Assembly (NCBI RefSeq): GCF_026340655.1
Contig: NZ_JAPEOZ010000001.1
Location: 4,464,001 to 4,528,000 of the forward strand
Source: Streptomyces sp. NBC_01275
GTDB taxonomy: Bacteria; Actinomycetota; Actinomycetes; Streptomycetales; Streptomycetaceae
DNA: 64,000 nt
Reading direction: 5' to 3'
Part shown: one piece after another, positions 21,962 to 27,085 of the stretch
Numbering within the stretch: position 1 is the stretch's first letter
Layout: every line of letters begins with the position of its first letter
Program-made: the position numbers and the translations under genes
Notes under the pieces: model-generated
The model's input: only the letters and a program-made list of their open reading frames with translations
What the model was told of the DNA's origin: nothing
Database searches by the model: none

Positions 21962-22765
21962 ATGGTGAAAGGGGCTGTGAAAGGGATGGTGGAAGGGACA
22001 CGGGCGGGGACGAGGGCGCGGCCGGCGGCGCCTGACCCGAGTGACGGCGCGGCGGGCAGGATCCTGCTCGCCGACGACGACGAGGACGTACGGGAAGGCA
22101 TCGGCCGGCTGCTCAGATTCGAGGGGTACGAGACCGTCCTCGCCGGCGACGGACGGCTCGCCCTCGATCTCGTGGGCGCGCCCGACGCGCCCGACCTGGT
22201 GCTGATGGACGTGACGATGCCCGGTCTGGACGGTCTGGCCGCGACCCGCCGGATCCGGGCCTCCGGCTGCACCGTGCCGATCCTGATGATCACCGGCCGG
22301 GACGCGGTCGGCGACCGGATCGTCGCCCTCGACAACGGCGCGGACGACTACCTGATGAAGCCGTTCGCCGTCGAGGAACTCCTCGCCCGGGTACGGGCCC
22401 TGCTGCGTCGCGGCGACCCACGCCGCCGCGGCCCGGGCCGGCGGTCGACGGCCAGGGCCGACACCCATCTGCTGGCCTTCCAGGACGTCGCCATGGACCC
22501 GGCGTCCCGCACGGTCACCCGCGGCGAACGCCCGCTCGACCTCACCCGCACCGAGTACTCCCTCCTGGAGTACCTCCTGCGCCACCCGGCGAAGGTCCTC
22601 AGCCGCTCCCAGATCCTCCGCGACGTCTGGGGCTTCGACTTCGAGCCCACGTCCAACACCCTCGACGTGTACGTCATGTACCTCCGCCGCAAACTCGAAC
22701 ACCACGGCGAACCCCGCCTGATCCAGACCGTGCGGGGGCTGGGGTACATCCTGCGGGTGGAGTGA
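21962..22765 (+). CDS. Orphan OmpR-family response regulator
   Basis: A 267-aa response regulator. From this start the receiver domain begins near residue 35 (ILLADDDEDVREG), with phospho-acceptor D83 (VLMDVTMP) and Lys in MKPFA. The winged helix ([30 protein letters not shown]) ends the protein. It is close in sequence to the regulator at 17313, so likely a paralogue, but no kinase is adjacent. The start is uncertain: ATGs at 21962 and 21986 and a GTG at 21977 are all in frame, in a purine-rich run of quasi-repeats. Confidence 0.85.
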   Translation: MVKGAVKGMVEGTRAGTRARPAAPDPSDGAAGRILLADDDEDVREGIGRLLRFEGYETVLAGDGRLALDLVGAPDAPDLVLMDVTMPGLDGLAATRRIRASGCTVPILMITGRDAVGDRIVALDNGADDYLMKPFAVEELLARVRALLRRGDPRRRGPGRRSTARADTHLLAFQDVAMDPASRTVTRGERPLDLTRTEYSLLEYLLRHPAKVLSRSQILRDVWGFDFEPTSNTLDVYVMYLRRKLEHHGEPRLIQTVRGLGYILRVE

Positions 22766-22778
22766 CGGGACGGACAGA

Positions 22779-22834
22779 CCCGCATCCGTCCCGTATCCGT
22801 CCCGTATCTGGCCCGCATCCGTCCCGTATCTGGC
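22779..22834. repeat. Short tandem repeats between convergent genes
   Basis: Repeating CCGCATCCGTCCCGTATC-type units (11-bp core ATCCGTCCCGT) fill the gap between the response regulator and the ABC exporter stop codons. Possibly slippage-generated; may also act in termination. Confidence 0.6.
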
Positions 22835-24616
22835 CTATATCCGCAGAACCAGCGTGTCCTCCGCCAGCCCCTTCTCCCCCGCCGCGCCCGGCCAGGGCTC
22901 CGCGAGCCTTGCGTAGGCGGGGCAGCGGAGCATCAGTTCGGTGTGGGTGCCGGTGTCCAGGAGGCGGCCCTCGTCGACGACCAGGATGCGGTCGGCGTCG
23001 GGGGCGAGGCTGAGGTCGTGGGTGATCATGATGGTCGTACGGCCGGACATCAGGCGGCGCAGAGGCTGGACGATCTGGCGGGCGGCGACCGAGTCGAGGC
23101 CGGCGGTCGGTTCGTCGAGGACGAGGACCGGGGCCGCGCGGAGCATCGCGCGGGCGATGGCGACGCGCTGGAGCTGGCCGCCGGAGAGGGCGGCGGTGCC
23201 GGGGGCGAGGTGGGTGTCGTAGCCGTCGGGGAGCGCGGTGATGAAGGTGTGGGCCGCGGCCGACCGGGCCGCCTGTTCGATCTCCGGGTCCGTGGCGCCG
23301 GGGCGGCCGCAGGCGATGTTCTCGCGGATCGTGCCGTTGAGGACGAGGGTCTGCTGGGGAAGCAGGGCGATGTTCTCGCGGACGAACTCCAGGGGTACGT
23401 CCGTGAGCGGGACGCCGTCGAGGCAGACGACGCCCGTCTCGGGGTCGTAGAAGCGGGTGAGGAGTTTGGAGAGGGTGGACTTGCCGGCGCCGCTCGCGCC
23501 CGTGACCAGGACGAGTTCGCCCGGGCCCGCGGTGAAGGCGACGTCGCTCAGGGACTCCCGGGGCGCGTCCGGGTAGCGGAAGCCGACGCCGTGGAAGCTG
23601 ACCCAGCCCCGGACCGGCCAGGCGGGGACGGGGGCGGCGGGGTCCTTGACGGCCGGTTCGGCGTCCAGGATCTCGGCGATGCGCTCCGCGCCCGCCGTGG
23701 CCGCGGTGACCGTCAGGCCGAGCTGGCCGAGGCTGCGGACCGGGGGGTAGAGGTAGCCGATGAAGGCGGCGAAGGCGAGCAGCGCGCCGAGCGTCATCCG
23801 GCCGGCCGAGATCTCCCAGACGCCCAGGCCGATCACCGTCAGGACGCAGAGGGTCTCCACCACCTCCACGAACTGCTCGTACATCTCGCTCAGCCGCGCC
23901 CCGCGCACGCTCGCCCGCATCCAGGCGCGGGCCTCCTTGTCGAGCCGCCGCTCCTCGTCGCGGCGGCGGTTGTACGCCTGGGTCAGCACGATGTTGCCCA
24001 GCGACTCCTCCACCACCGAGGTGATCGCGCCGTCCGCCGCCCGCTCGTCCCGCGAGGCCTCCTTGATGCGGCCGGAGAAGCGGCGCGCGGCGAGCAGGAA
24101 GAGGGGCGCGAGGACGAAGGTGACCAGGGCCAGGTCCCAGCGGAGGTAGAGGGCCGCCGCCGAGTAGAAGACCGCCGAGAAGGCCGCGGAGATCGTTCCC
24201 ACGACGCCCGACACCACCAGTTGTTCTATCGCCTCGACGTCTCCCGTCAGGCGTTCCACCAGGTCGCCCTGGCGGTGCTTCTGGAAGAAGTGGGGCGGGA
24301 GGTCCTGGACATGGCGGAAGACGTTCGCGCGCAGGCGCAGGACGAAGCGCTCGGCCGTCCAGGTCGCGAGCGAGTTGCCGAGGTAGCCGACGAGCGCGCC
24401 GAGCGCCGCGACGGCCAGCCAGGCGCCGGCCGGCCCCCAGAACGCGGAGAGCGAACCGGCCTGCAGGGCGTTGTCGGTGAGCTCGGCGAACAGCAGGATG
24501 GCGGCGGTCTCGGCGAGCGCAGACGCCACCACGCACCCCACGATCACCAGCATCCATCTGCGGTCACCGCGGGTCAGCGGCCAGAACCGGCGGAAGGCCT
24601 CACGGGCTTCCCTCAT
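22835..24616 (-). CDS. ABC exporter, fused membrane and ATPase domains
   Basis: A 593-aa half-transporter of the exporter type. A six-span membrane domain (about 15-310) is followed by the ATPase domain (about 345-580) with Walker A (TGASGAGKSTLSKLL), the Q-loop (LLPQQTLVLNG), signature LSGGQLQR, Walker B VLVLDEPTAGLD and H-loop THDLS. The ATG at 24616 has GGAAGGAG 9 nt upstream; an in-frame start at 24673 is weaker. It lacks the C39 peptidase domain of bacteriocin exporters. Two small cationic peptide genes lie directly upstream on the same strand, separated by a hairpin, and may be co-regulated. Substrate unknown. Confidence 0.9.
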   Translation of the reverse strand: MREAREAFRRFWPLTRGDRRWMLVIVGCVVASALAETAAILLFAELTDNALQAGSLSAFWGPAGAWLAVAALGALVGYLGNSLATWTAERFVLRLRANVFRHVQDLPPHFFQKHRQGDLVERLTGDVEAIEQLVVSGVVGTISAAFSAVFYSAAALYLRWDLALVTFVLAPLFLLAARRFSGRIKEASRDERAADGAITSVVEESLGNIVLTQAYNRRRDEERRLDKEARAWMRASVRGARLSEMYEQFVEVVETLCVLTVIGLGVWEISAGRMTLGALLAFAAFIGYLYPPVRSLGQLGLTVTAATAGAERIAEILDAEPAVKDPAAPVPAWPVRGWVSFHGVGFRYPDAPRESLSDVAFTAGPGELVLVTGASGAGKSTLSKLLTRFYDPETGVVCLDGVPLTDVPLEFVRENIALLPQQTLVLNGTIRENIACGRPGATDPEIEQAARSAAAHTFITALPDGYDTHLAPGTAALSGGQLQRVAIARAMLRAAPVLVLDEPTAGLDSVAARQIVQPLRRLMSGRTTIMITHDLSLAPDADRILVVDEGRLLDTGTHTELMLRCPAYARLAEPWPGAAGEKGLAEDTLVLRI

Positions 24617-24659
24617 CGTCCACGACTCCTTCCAGTGCGTCCGGTGCATCCGTGCATGG

Positions 24660-24699
24660 CGAGGCGGGGCCACCGGATTCCTCCGGTGGCCCCGCCTCG
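24660..24699 (-). terminator. 18-bp perfect hairpin between peptide gene and ABC exporter
   Basis: Arms 24660-24677 and 24682-24699 are perfectly complementary, with a TTCC loop. It lies 11 bp past the stop of the nearer peptide gene and 44 bp before the exporter start. Likely a terminator or attenuator that lowers expression of the exporter relative to the peptides. Confidence 0.75.
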
Positions 24700-24709
24700 T
24701 GGCGTTCCG

Positions 24710-24838
24710 TCAGCCCTTGTGCGCGACCGGGCGGCGCTTCGGCGCGGGCTGCGGAGCGGCCTTCTTCTTGGCGACCGGCTTCGGGGCCGGAGCGGCCTTG
24801 CGGGTCTTCTTCACCGGGGCGATCTTGTGGAAGCTCAT
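24710..24838 (-). CDS. 42-aa cationic Lys/Pro/Ala peptide, copy B
   Basis: A 42-residue, strongly basic peptide beginning MSFHKIAPVKKTRKAAPAP and ending RRPVAHKG. AAP and PKP motifs alternate with KK/KKK clusters. The ribosome site is GGAAAGG, 8 nt before the ATG. It is a clear paralogue of the peptide encoded at 24894-25028 (identical first 11 residues and a shared AKKKAAP and KRRPV). It could be a DNA- or RNA-binding micropeptide (like Lys/Pro/Ala-rich histone tails), a membrane-active peptide, or an export substrate of the neighbouring ABC protein. None of these is proven. Confidence 0.75.
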   Translation of the reverse strand: MSFHKIAPVKKTRKAAPAPKPVAKKKAAPQPAPKRRPVAHKG

Positions 24839-24893
24839 GTGAATTGCCTTTCCGTTTATCAGGAATGTGTTATGTGCAGCTGTGAATTAAGTG

Positions 24894-25028
24894 TCAGTCC
24901 TTATGGGACACCGGGCGACGCTTGGGAGTGACCTTCGGAGCGGCCTTCTTCTTGGCGACGGGCTTCGCGACCGGGGCCGGAGCAGTCTTGCGGGCCTTCT
25001 TGACGGGGGCGATCTTGTGGAAGCTCAT
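24894..25028 (-). CDS. 44-aa cationic Lys/Pro/Ala peptide, copy A
   Basis: A 44-residue paralogue of the next gene, starting MSFHKIAPVKKARKTAPAP and ending KRRPVSHKD. The ribosome site is CGGAG, 6 nt before the ATG. The two copies are 55 bp apart in the same direction, so they arose by tandem duplication, and the conserved ends suggest selection on the protein. There is no signal peptide and no Cys, Trp or Tyr, so it is probably unstructured. Function unknown. Confidence 0.75.
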   Translation of the reverse strand: MSFHKIAPVKKARKTAPAPVAKPVAKKKAAPKVTPKRRPVSHKD

Positions 25029-25224
25029 GGCGTTCTCCGCTCAGTCTGTTCACTCTGTTCGCGATCTTCGCTTTCGCGTCGTTCGCTTTCGACATGGAAA
25101 ACACTACGGGACACCGGAAGAAGAAAAAGCCAATTCCGCTTAGACCTCGATGAATTGCGGCTGAGATGAGTTTTCAGGAGAATGCGGGAACCAAATCCGG
25201 GCTTACACAGGTTTTAATACGACG

Positions 25225-25257
25225 AGAGGCGGCCGCGTCGGTGACGCGGCCGCCTCT
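25225..25257 (-). terminator. Terminator after the 5'-nucleotidase gene
   Basis: Perfect 15-bp arms (AGAGGCGGCCGCGTC and its complement) with a GGT loop, 26 bp past the nucleotidase stop. A modest A/T-rich run follows on the minus strand. The rest of 25029-25282 holds the peptide promoter and no other gene I can support. Confidence 0.8.
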
Positions 25258-25282
25258 TGCCGTGAGTGTGGTGCGGGTGGGG

Positions 25283-27085
25283 CTACTGCACGATCGTGAT
25301 CCGGTTCGTCGCCGGCGGGGTGATCGGCGCGGCGGCCGAGGAGTTGGCCAGCAGGTACTGCTCCAGGGCCGCGAGGTCGTCGCTGCCGACGAGGTCGTTC
25401 GTGCCCTGGCCCAGCGTGGTGAAGCCGTCGCCGCCGCCCGCGAGGAAGCTGTTGGTCGCGACGCGGTAGGTGGCGGCCGGGTCGATCGCCGTGCCGTTGA
25501 CCTTGACGGAGTCCGTGACGACACGGTCGGCGCCGGTCTTCGTCAGGTCCAGGGTGTACGTCAGGTTGGCGGACGGCTGGAGGATCTTCGGCGCGCTCGC
25601 GTTCGTCCCGCTCACCTGCTCCTTGAGGACCTGGATCAGCTGGGCGCCGGTGAAGTCCTGCAGGTTCACGGTGTTGGAGAACGGCTGCACGGTGAAGCCC
25701 TCGGCGTACGTCACCACGCCGTCGCCCTCACTGCCCTTGGCCGTGTAGGTCAGACCGGCCCGGACGCCGCCCGGGTTCATCAGCGCGAGGTCGGTCTCGG
25801 CGTCCAGCTCCTTGCCGTACCAGAGCTGCGCGTCCGCGATCAGGTCGCCCATCGGGGACTCGGTGCCCGTGTTCGGGACGTCGGCGGAGATGTAGCCGAT
25901 CGCGCGGTTGCCGACCGGGGCCGCCAGGGTGTTCCACTTGCTGATCAGCTCGGTCATGTCCGGCGCCTTGGCGACGGTCCGGGTGACCACGTGGTTCGCC
26001 GACTTCACCGCCGTACGCGCGATGTCACCGGTGAAGCGGTCGTACGTCAGCGTGGTGTCCGTGTACAGCCGGCCGAAGGACGCGGCCGAGGTGACCGTGC
26101 GCGGCTTGCCCGAGGGGTCCGGGATCGTGCACGCGTACGCGGCGTGCGTGTGGCCGGTGACCAGCGCGTCCACCTGCGGGGTGATGTTCTTGGCGATGTC
26201 GACGATCGGGCCGGAGACGCCGTCGCCCGCGCCCGGGGAGTCGCAGTTGTAGTTGTAGGAGGACGAGGCCGGGAGGCCGCCCTCGTGGATGAGCGCCACG
26301 ATCGACTTCACGCCCTGCCTCTGCAGCACCTTGGCGTACTTGTTGATCGTCTCGACCTCGTCCTTGAACTTCAGGCCCTTGACGCCCTCGGCGGAGACGA
26401 CGCCGGGGGTGCCCTCCAGCGTCACGCCGATGAAGCCGATCTTGACGTCCTTCTTCTTCCAGACGAAGTACGGCTTCAGGATCGGCTTGCCGGTCTTCTC
26501 GTCCAGGACGTTGGCCGCCAGGTACGGGAAGTCGGCGCCCTGGAACTTCTTGTCCGTGTAGCAGCCGGCCGTCGGGTGGCAGCCGCCGTTCTGCAGACGG
26601 GCCAGTTCCCTCGCGCCCTCGTCGAACTCGTGGTTGCCGACGGACGTGACGTCCAGGTCCAGCTTGTTCAGCGCCTCGATCGTGGGCTCGTCGTGGAAGA
26701 GGCCCGAGATCAGCGGGGACGCGCCGACCATGTCGCCGCCGGCCGCGGTGATGGAGTACGCGTTGCTCTTGCGGGCCTCGCGCAGATGCGTGGCGAGGTA
26801 CTCCACACCGCCCGCGTCGATCGTCTTCGTCGTGCCGTCCGCCTGGAGTTCGGTGACCCGGCCGGAGGAGCCCGACGGGGGCTCGAGGTTGCCGTGCAGA
26901 TCGTTGAACGACAGCAGCTGCACGTCCTGGTAGCGGCTCGGCAGCGGCTTGGAGTGCTTGGCGTCGTGCGCGTCCGCCGGGAGGGCGGCGGCCAGAGCGC
27001 CCGCGGTGGCGAGCGTGGCGGCGGCAGCGACCATGCGATACGTACGACGTCTGCGGCTGAGGTACGACTGGGATGTGGCTGGCAT
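25283..27085 (-). CDS. Secreted 5'-nucleotidase / UshA-like metallophosphatase
   Basis: A 600-aa exported enzyme that dephosphorylates nucleotides. It has a signal peptide with a basic start and a hydrophobic run (about 18-37, ending ADAHDAKH). The metallophosphatase domain is at about 48-360 with motifs DLHGN, GGDMVGASP, GNHEFDEG and VTGHTHA. The C-terminal substrate-binding domain (about 385-590) has the nucleotidase pattern (MNPGGVRAGL, NSFLAGGGDGFTTL). The ATG at 27085 follows GGGGGG. It may scavenge phosphate or nucleosides; I saw no clear PHO box in 27086-27241. Confidence 0.92.
   Translation of the reverse strand: MPATSQSYLSRRRRTYRMVAAAATLATAGALAAALPADAHDAKHSKPLPSRYQDVQLLSFNDLHGNLEPPSGSSGRVTELQADGTTKTIDAGGVEYLATHLREARKSNAYSITAAGGDMVGASPLISGLFHDEPTIEALNKLDLDVTSVGNHEFDEGARELARLQNGGCHPTAGCYTDKKFQGADFPYLAANVLDEKTGKPILKPYFVWKKKDVKIGFIGVTLEGTPGVVSAEGVKGLKFKDEVETINKYAKVLQRQGVKSIVALIHEGGLPASSSYNYNCDSPGAGDGVSGPIVDIAKNITPQVDALVTGHTHAAYACTIPDPSGKPRTVTSAASFGRLYTDTTLTYDRFTGDIARTAVKSANHVVTRTVAKAPDMTELISKWNTLAAPVGNRAIGYISADVPNTGTESPMGDLIADAQLWYGKELDAETDLALMNPGGVRAGLTYTAKGSEGDGVVTYAEGFTVQPFSNTVNLQDFTGAQLIQVLKEQVSGTNASAPKILQPSANLTYTLDLTKTGADRVVTDSVKVNGTAIDPAATYRVATNSFLAGGGDGFTTLGQGTNDLVGSDDLAALEQYLLANSSAAAPITPPATNRITIVQ

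Follow-up and report, generated by a model that had tools for sequence, protein, structure and literature searches.

Analysis of the window, the whole 64,000-nucleotide stretch of the Streptomyces sp. NBC_01275 genome considered here, has revealed a pair of tandem micropeptide genes that precede an ABC exporter gene on the minus strand, with this pairing of small peptide and exporter recurring in other genomes. From sequence comparison, the reading that we favor, at a probability of roughly 0.47, is that the peptides would be a leaderless, disordered and polycationic cargo of the adjacent ABCB/MsbA-type exporter that is expressed from a dedicated promoter. Both small ORFs would be transcribed from this promoter and translated into peptides that lack a leader, and the hairpin that follows them would end most transcripts, leading to an excess of peptide over exporter. 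The N-terminal octapeptide (approximately M-S-F-[KRH]-x-[ILVF]-x-P) would be the address that is recognized by the exporter, with the low-complexity remainder constituting the cargo. The adjacent exporter would then move the peptides out of the cell, where these cationic molecules may attach to polyanions such as wall polymers and extracellular DNA, or may have an effect on competitors.

A broader and considerably more speculative proposal is that Actinobacteria contain a class of export unit made up of two genes, whereby a single ABC lineage would secrete fast-changing, disordered, low-complexity peptides that have just a short N-terminal tag in common, read as an octapeptide code, as a polyanion-binding or polyanion-condensing surface material. 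Under this proposal the kinds of peptide are Lys-Ala-Pro, poly-Pro-Lys, Arg, Arg-Gly, His-Gly and Lys-Ser-Tyr. If true, this would add an exporter-peptide system to the Actinobacteria that resides in genes that databases name hypothetical, and the exporter clades with their matching low-complexity peptides would provide a natural series for study of how an ABC exporter recognizes disordered cargo.

Organization of the micropeptide and exporter locus

The 5' to 3' order on the minus strand is upstream block, micropeptide A, micropeptide B, hairpin and ABC exporter (Table 1). The first-pass annotation had described tandem small ORFs of 42 and 44 residues that share an MSFHKIAPVKK start and have their own ribosome-binding sites, followed by an 18-bp hairpin and then by a same-strand ABC exporter, and all of these elements were recovered. 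The Shine-Dalgarno sequence is GGAG (25038-25035) for micropeptide A and GGAAAGG (24853-24847) for micropeptide B. Absence of Cys and of a double-glycine leader had likewise been claimed, in agreement with the sequence, as neither peptide contains a Cys and both read as having no leader and no double-glycine site. The GRAVY values of the two peptides are -0.82 and -0.93. Pfam gave no match to either micropeptide, NCBIfam gave a chance match alone (E 0.66), and a search of the own genome returned just two strong peptide matches (E 6.8e-21 and 1.5e-12) with the next at 0.2.

Table 1. Features of the micropeptide and exporter locus in window coordinates.
Feature	Position	Strand	Description
Conserved upstream block	25048..25217	-	elements CTGAAAA..TCTCAG, GAGGTCTAAGCGGAATTGGC, CCGTAGTGTTTTCCATGTCGAAAGCGAACG
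-10-like TAGTGT	25101..25106	-	in conserved upstream block; followed by TTTCC, then ATG 25093-25095
Possible leaderless mini-ORF start (MSKAN...)	25081..25095	-	in conserved leader
Micropeptide A	24894..25028	-	44 aa, MSFHKIAPVKK...PKRRPVSHKD, net charge +13
Micropeptide B	24710..24838	-	42 aa, tandem paralogue of A, net charge +13
Hairpin	24660..24699	-	perfect 18-bp stem, 4-nt loop, terminator-like, 3' of last peptide gene
ABC exporter	22835..24616	-	593 aa, ABC_membrane and ABC_tran; sequence shows Walker A/B, LSGGQ and an H-loop

The best start of the exporter is the ATG at 24616, with a Shine-Dalgarno sequence GGAAGGAG at 24626-24633; the GTG at 24673 that is given in the ORF listing falls inside the hairpin and is less likely. 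ABC_membrane, ABC_tran and AAA_21 are the only Pfam families above cut-off, with no C39 peptidase domain found by Pfam, and a double-glycine bacteriocin system with a peptidase-ABC exporter was rejected for lack of this domain. The fused TMD-NBD architecture with Walker A, LSGGQ and Walker B is that of ABCB/MsbA-type exporters, such that domain order and motifs are common to MsbA, Sav1866 and P-glycoprotein. Matches to MsbA-named chains have E 4.9e-83 and weaker, with P-glycoprotein-type chains matching more strongly. Unlike these three proteins, the exporter of the window belongs to a separate clade that is linked to micropeptides, and its matches come from genomes of the class, to which the searches were confined. 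Substrates of MsbA-like exporters are often lipids or drugs. A fold model of the exporter was too weak for use (mean pLDDT 54.1, pTM 0.38).

Strong folding is predicted behind the peptides at most loci. For the 70 nt located 3' of the last listed copy, the folding energy is at or below -25 kcal/mol in 35 of 37 peptide loci (median -47.2 kcal/mol, range -54.6 to -14.0, 37 loci), and folding between copies gave a median of -13.2 kcal/mol (22 spacers, -17.7 to -5.7). The two weak folders are a locus with a broken exporter (L073) and one where a third copy had been left out (L074). In 27 of the 37 loci the predicted stem starts 9-13 nt past the stop codon. No U-run is present 3' of the hairpin in the window. 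A separate hairpin-like element, similar in sequence to TTGCAGCAGATCGGTAGAGGAACTGTTGCAG, recurs in several species; it occurs in the spacers between peptide copies of L044, L053, L054, L059 and L061, whereas in L045 and L049 it is located 5' of the peptide. An Rfam search of 22700-25400 returned a single match at chance level (E 0.42).

The region upstream of the first peptide is also conserved. In 33 of 35 class-1 loci a core motif is located within the 260 nt that precede the first peptide, with L064, one of the two misses, exhibiting the motif in a separate source scan. The core motif is present in 65 of 76 sources and was used to choose the loci for alignment; in the 58 aligned loci conservation reaches well past it. 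The aligned blocks contain TARTGT, TTTCC and then ATG, GTG or TTG before TCG, an arrangement that a leaderless start would fit. The mini-ORF that would begin there shares the reading frame of the peptide in some relatives, and its coding capacity is doubtful given a pN/pS of 0.70 for codons 2-5 over 9 variants. Class-2 peptides have related upstream motifs of two patterns in 4 of 22 and 9 of 22 loci. A scan of the own genome with the upstream block returned the block itself, chance matches of 16 and 20 bases and one pattern match; with no second good match in this genome, no regulon was found. Within the block on the minus strand, TCTCAG-type elements repeat approximately 22 bp apart, and conservation is far above that of an ordinary promoter. 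Complementary changes in a CTGAGA/TCTCAG stem, as seen by eye, could reflect an RNA stem or equally an operator.

Conservation of the peptide family and its linkage to close exporters

A protein search recovered 59 proteins at E<=0.01, which include the two peptides of the window and therefore 57 further relatives, with Streptomyces as the organism wherever the protein names give one. The ends of these peptides are near constant (MSFHKIAPVKK and KRRPVxHKG) and flank a Lys/Ala/Pro middle of variable length. Pooled and uncorrected pN/pS values are 0.42 for codons 2-11, 0.32 for the C-terminal [KR]RPV block and 1.2 for the unaligned middle, such that both ends look selected and appear to be kept as amino acids. 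Copy number per locus is one in 22, two in 11, three in 2, four in 1 and five in 1 of 37 loci, so that tandem full copies (2-5), preceded by SD-like sequences, occur in 15 of 37. This count was restricted to peptides of up to 52 aa that start with M[SA]F and have E of 1e-8 or lower, by which one weak copy each in L068 and L074 was left out.

The peptide is present in at least 41 of 295 genomes of the genus by profile search, and an exporter of at least 78% identity (E<=1e-210) in at least 34 of the same 295 genomes as judged by their handles, with all 34 among the 41. Of the other seven peptide-positive genomes, three have a broken exporter (G157, with a frame break, G268 and G271), one has none (G185), two have a class-2 exporter (G085 and G196) and one is a chance peptide match (G044). 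Among 30 peptide-negative genomes, 29 have the 5'-nucleotidase and at least 4 have an exporter at E<=1e-100, namely three of 47-49% and one 78% fragment (L150) that is located at a contig edge with its upstream side beyond the available DNA.

The wider neighborhood is also largely conserved, including a nucleotidase, an acetyltransferase and a histidine kinase, and inheritance by vertical descent accounts for some of the co-occurrence. The unit in L070 occurs in a different neighborhood where just one of nine flank genes has a relative (38%), and L063, L068 and L074 have kept both peptide and exporter without the nucleotidase. Apparently intact peptide ORFs also occur where the exporter has a frame break (L054), is missing (L071), has an internal deletion (L073) or exists in pieces only (L083 and L094); draft-sequence errors are possibly behind some of these five cases. 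In L077 both peptide and exporter are truncated.

The suggestion that these peptides constitute a new family is supported, as they are kept across Streptomyces and have no Pfam or NCBIfam model. Two findings that could have overturned it, an absence of conservation and an absence of exporter linkage in other species, did not occur. The first-pass annotation had left open whether exporter and peptides are related; the data indicate that they are, with the peptide present alongside all 34 close exporters and the pairing extending to distant ones. Its overall interpretation is supported in part, the parts that stand being the family, the lack of a leader, the conservation and the exporter link. 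The strings MSFHKIAPVKK, MSFKKLAPLPP, MSFRKVFP, MSFRKIFP, MSFHKIAP and MAIFSSLLP are absent from open-access papers, a scope outside of which most subscription papers lie, and a topic search of the open-access literature found no paper on a peptide-exporter unit. A two-part unit composed of a tiny repetitive disordered peptide beside an exporter is apparently of an undescribed kind.

Exchange of peptide type among distant exporters

Exporters of 64-76% identity were found at other loci, of which 40 were combined with L078 and L080 to give 42. A small peptide is encoded upstream on the same strand in 41 of these (three by eye), with the remaining locus, L208, having too little upstream DNA. The peptides at these loci are of the MSFKKLAPLPPKPKSKQLPPPPKPKPKK type, the MSFHKIVPVKPARKAEPKKKHH type, or are Ala-Arg-rich, Arg-rich, Arg-Gly-rich or Arg-Asp-rich. 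More generally, exporters of 47-76% identity and relatives from other families have a low-complexity peptide in the same place with another composition (poly-Pro/Lys, Arg-rich, Arg-Gly, His-Gly).

A uniform rule (SD-like 4-mer, ATG, 28-80 aa, net charge of at least +4, low entropy), which was set after the peptides had been seen, is positive upstream of 29 of 30 class-1, 37 of 39 class-2 and 1 of 3 exporters of 47-49%, and upstream of 1 of 19 further ABC exporters that are encoded by the own genome and served as controls. This count omitted L168 and L208 for their short upstream DNA and controls with fewer than 350 aligned residues, and the start positions of distant control exporters were extrapolated. 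Loci that are missed by the rule have a peptide by eye, namely L170 (class-1, from the genome of L047) as well as L185 and L222 (class-2; net charge +2 in L222). The 47-49% loci L151 and L153 have, by eye, His-Gly-rich peptides with net charges of -1 and -8 that are not cationic.

Across 296 genomes of the class, at least 6 contain a match to the exporter of the window at E<=1e-190, and each of them belongs to the own genus. Relatives of a 47% exporter extend to three other families and occur in at least 4 of 296 genomes (two of the own genus) and at least 7 of 293. Seven of the nine loci from outside the genus (L258-L266) encode a small low-complexity peptide upstream of the exporter and on its strand. 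A peptide of this kind is also present at L256 and L257 of the own genus. The other two of the nine are L264, which stops at a contig edge, and L258, where by eye the sole low-complexity small ORF is on the opposite strand, upstream of 1500; both are from other families.

Peptide type tracks the exporter phylogeny. With ten labels, one for the controls and nine for the peptide classes, the tree requires 9 changes, the minimum possible, versus a mean of 43.8 after shuffling. It was built from 83 exporters by a quick maximum-likelihood method, the labels were assigned by eye, near-copies help the test, and L208 was labelled poly-Pro/Lys even though its peptide region lies outside the DNA read. 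An M[STAG][FLI][KRHNS]x[ILVF]xP signature, set after the peptides had been seen, is present in 35 of 41 class-2 peptides. Where the start is supported by an SD (18 loci), exporters of the poly-Pro/Lys clade have an N-terminal tail with a net charge between -1 and -18; in the other four loci of the clade it is -9 in one and +4 to +9 in three, the latter with a far start and no SD. Negative tails outside of this clade occur in L186 (-6), L216 (-6) and L227 (-10), and the exporter of the window has no acidic N-terminal tail. A second pair in the own genome (L184) consists of an exporter at G000:C1:4334443-4336164 and a poly-Pro/Lys peptide, and a nearby in-frame start would yield an acidic, Tyr-rich exporter tail. 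As the own genome holds two pairs, specificity can be tested within one strain.

Alternative explanations and neighboring genes

That the peptides vary widely between strains while the pairing persists suggests that the exporter ships them out. Counting against export as cargo are the five loci where the peptide ORFs appear intact and the exporter is damaged or absent, the two 47-49% loci with non-cationic peptides, the lack of an acidic tail on the exporter of the window together with negative tails at three loci of other clades, the frequent transport of lipids or drugs by MsbA-like exporters, and the lack of a constant immunity, protease or modification gene beside the pair. The five loci would also be expected if peptide and exporter were merely neutral, unrelated neighbors, as would the conserved nucleotidase, acetyltransferase and histidine kinase surroundings; this is highly improbable given that the pairing recurs with diverged exporters elsewhere and in other families and does not extend to the remaining exporters of the own genome. 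The principal alternative, itself unlikely, is that the small ORFs are cis-acting leaders in which slow translation of Pro/Lys/Arg/Gly-rich stretches, together with the terminator hairpin, controls read-through to the exporter as the true product. Poly-Pro and Arg runs are plausible slow-translation stretches, and the order of promoter motif, small ORF, hairpin and exporter recurs across loci with a closely spaced stem. A same-strand small ORF and terminator-like hairpin before an ABC gene, found here with the exception of L258, is also the arrangement of the leader-peptide attenuators of ABC resistance genes. The loci differ from such attenuators in having tandem full copies with SD-like sequences, C-termini that are conserved as amino acids like the N-termini, and in L258 a small ORF on the opposite strand. 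A leader explains the hairpin and does not easily explain these three features, and multiple copies in 15 of 37 loci are more easily explained by cargo. Less likely again is that the peptide would act inside the cell as a regulatory exporter subunit or nucleic-acid binder that is not transported. Small partners of membrane pumps exist, and the acidic exporter tail of one clade could dock a peptide; however, the exporter of the window has no such tail, and 1-5 copies per exporter together with a wide range of composition fit cargo better than a fitted subunit.

A special case of peptide export, slightly more probable than a cis-acting leader and still unlikely, is that the peptides may be antimicrobial (leaderless-bacteriocin-like or Pro/Arg/His/Gly-rich), with the exporter providing secretion and self-protection. 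They are short, mostly cationic, leaderless, tandem and linked to an exporter, and the types of composition that they exhibit are similar to those of known antimicrobial peptide classes. The transporter AurT accompanies aureocin A70. In one review, aureocin A70 consists of four cationic peptides of 30-31 aa, and like garvicin KS it resembles the present locus in having several short cationic leaderless peptides at conserved loci (PMC6131525). However, GRAVY in that review is +0.53 to +0.71 for aureocin A70, +0.40 to +0.71 for aureocin A70 and garvicin KS together, and -0.36 to +0.71 among the leaderless bacteriocins compared here, with both peptides of the window below this lowest value (PMC6131525). 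Relative to these leaderless bacteriocins, the peptides agree in being short, cationic and devoid of a leader or double-glycine site and fall outside the hydropathy range. They further differ from aureocin A70 and garvicin KS in their Lys/Ala/Pro low complexity and in that no constant immunity gene is recognizable at class-1 and class-2 loci, where immunity genes of an unfamiliar kind may be present. Another resemblance is to the phenol-soluble modulins of Staphylococcus, leaderless small peptides that are exported by the ABC system Pmt. The modulins differ from the peptides of the window in being amphipathic helices and in having an export system that comprises several genes.

No gene other than the exporter is present in all 38 class-2 loci examined, and no further gene is constant beside the pair in class-1 loci. 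At loci of both classes no recognizable immunity, protease or modification gene is constant beside the pair. LmeA, nucleotidase, MacB-like and FemAB-like neighbors were considered as parts of the unit and rejected as none is constant. An LmeA-like family (PF11209, one member tested, L043) is present at 15 loci among L042-L080, being located between nucleotidase and peptide in 12 of the 15 and, in L080, before the peptide without a nucleotidase. A family that matches Imm49 (one member tested, L048) is convergent behind the exporter in L048, L050, L054 and L055. Additionally, two ABC-transporter-like genes are located upstream of the pair in L186, L187, L220 and L221, and by their sequences these appear to resemble a MacB ATPase and permease.
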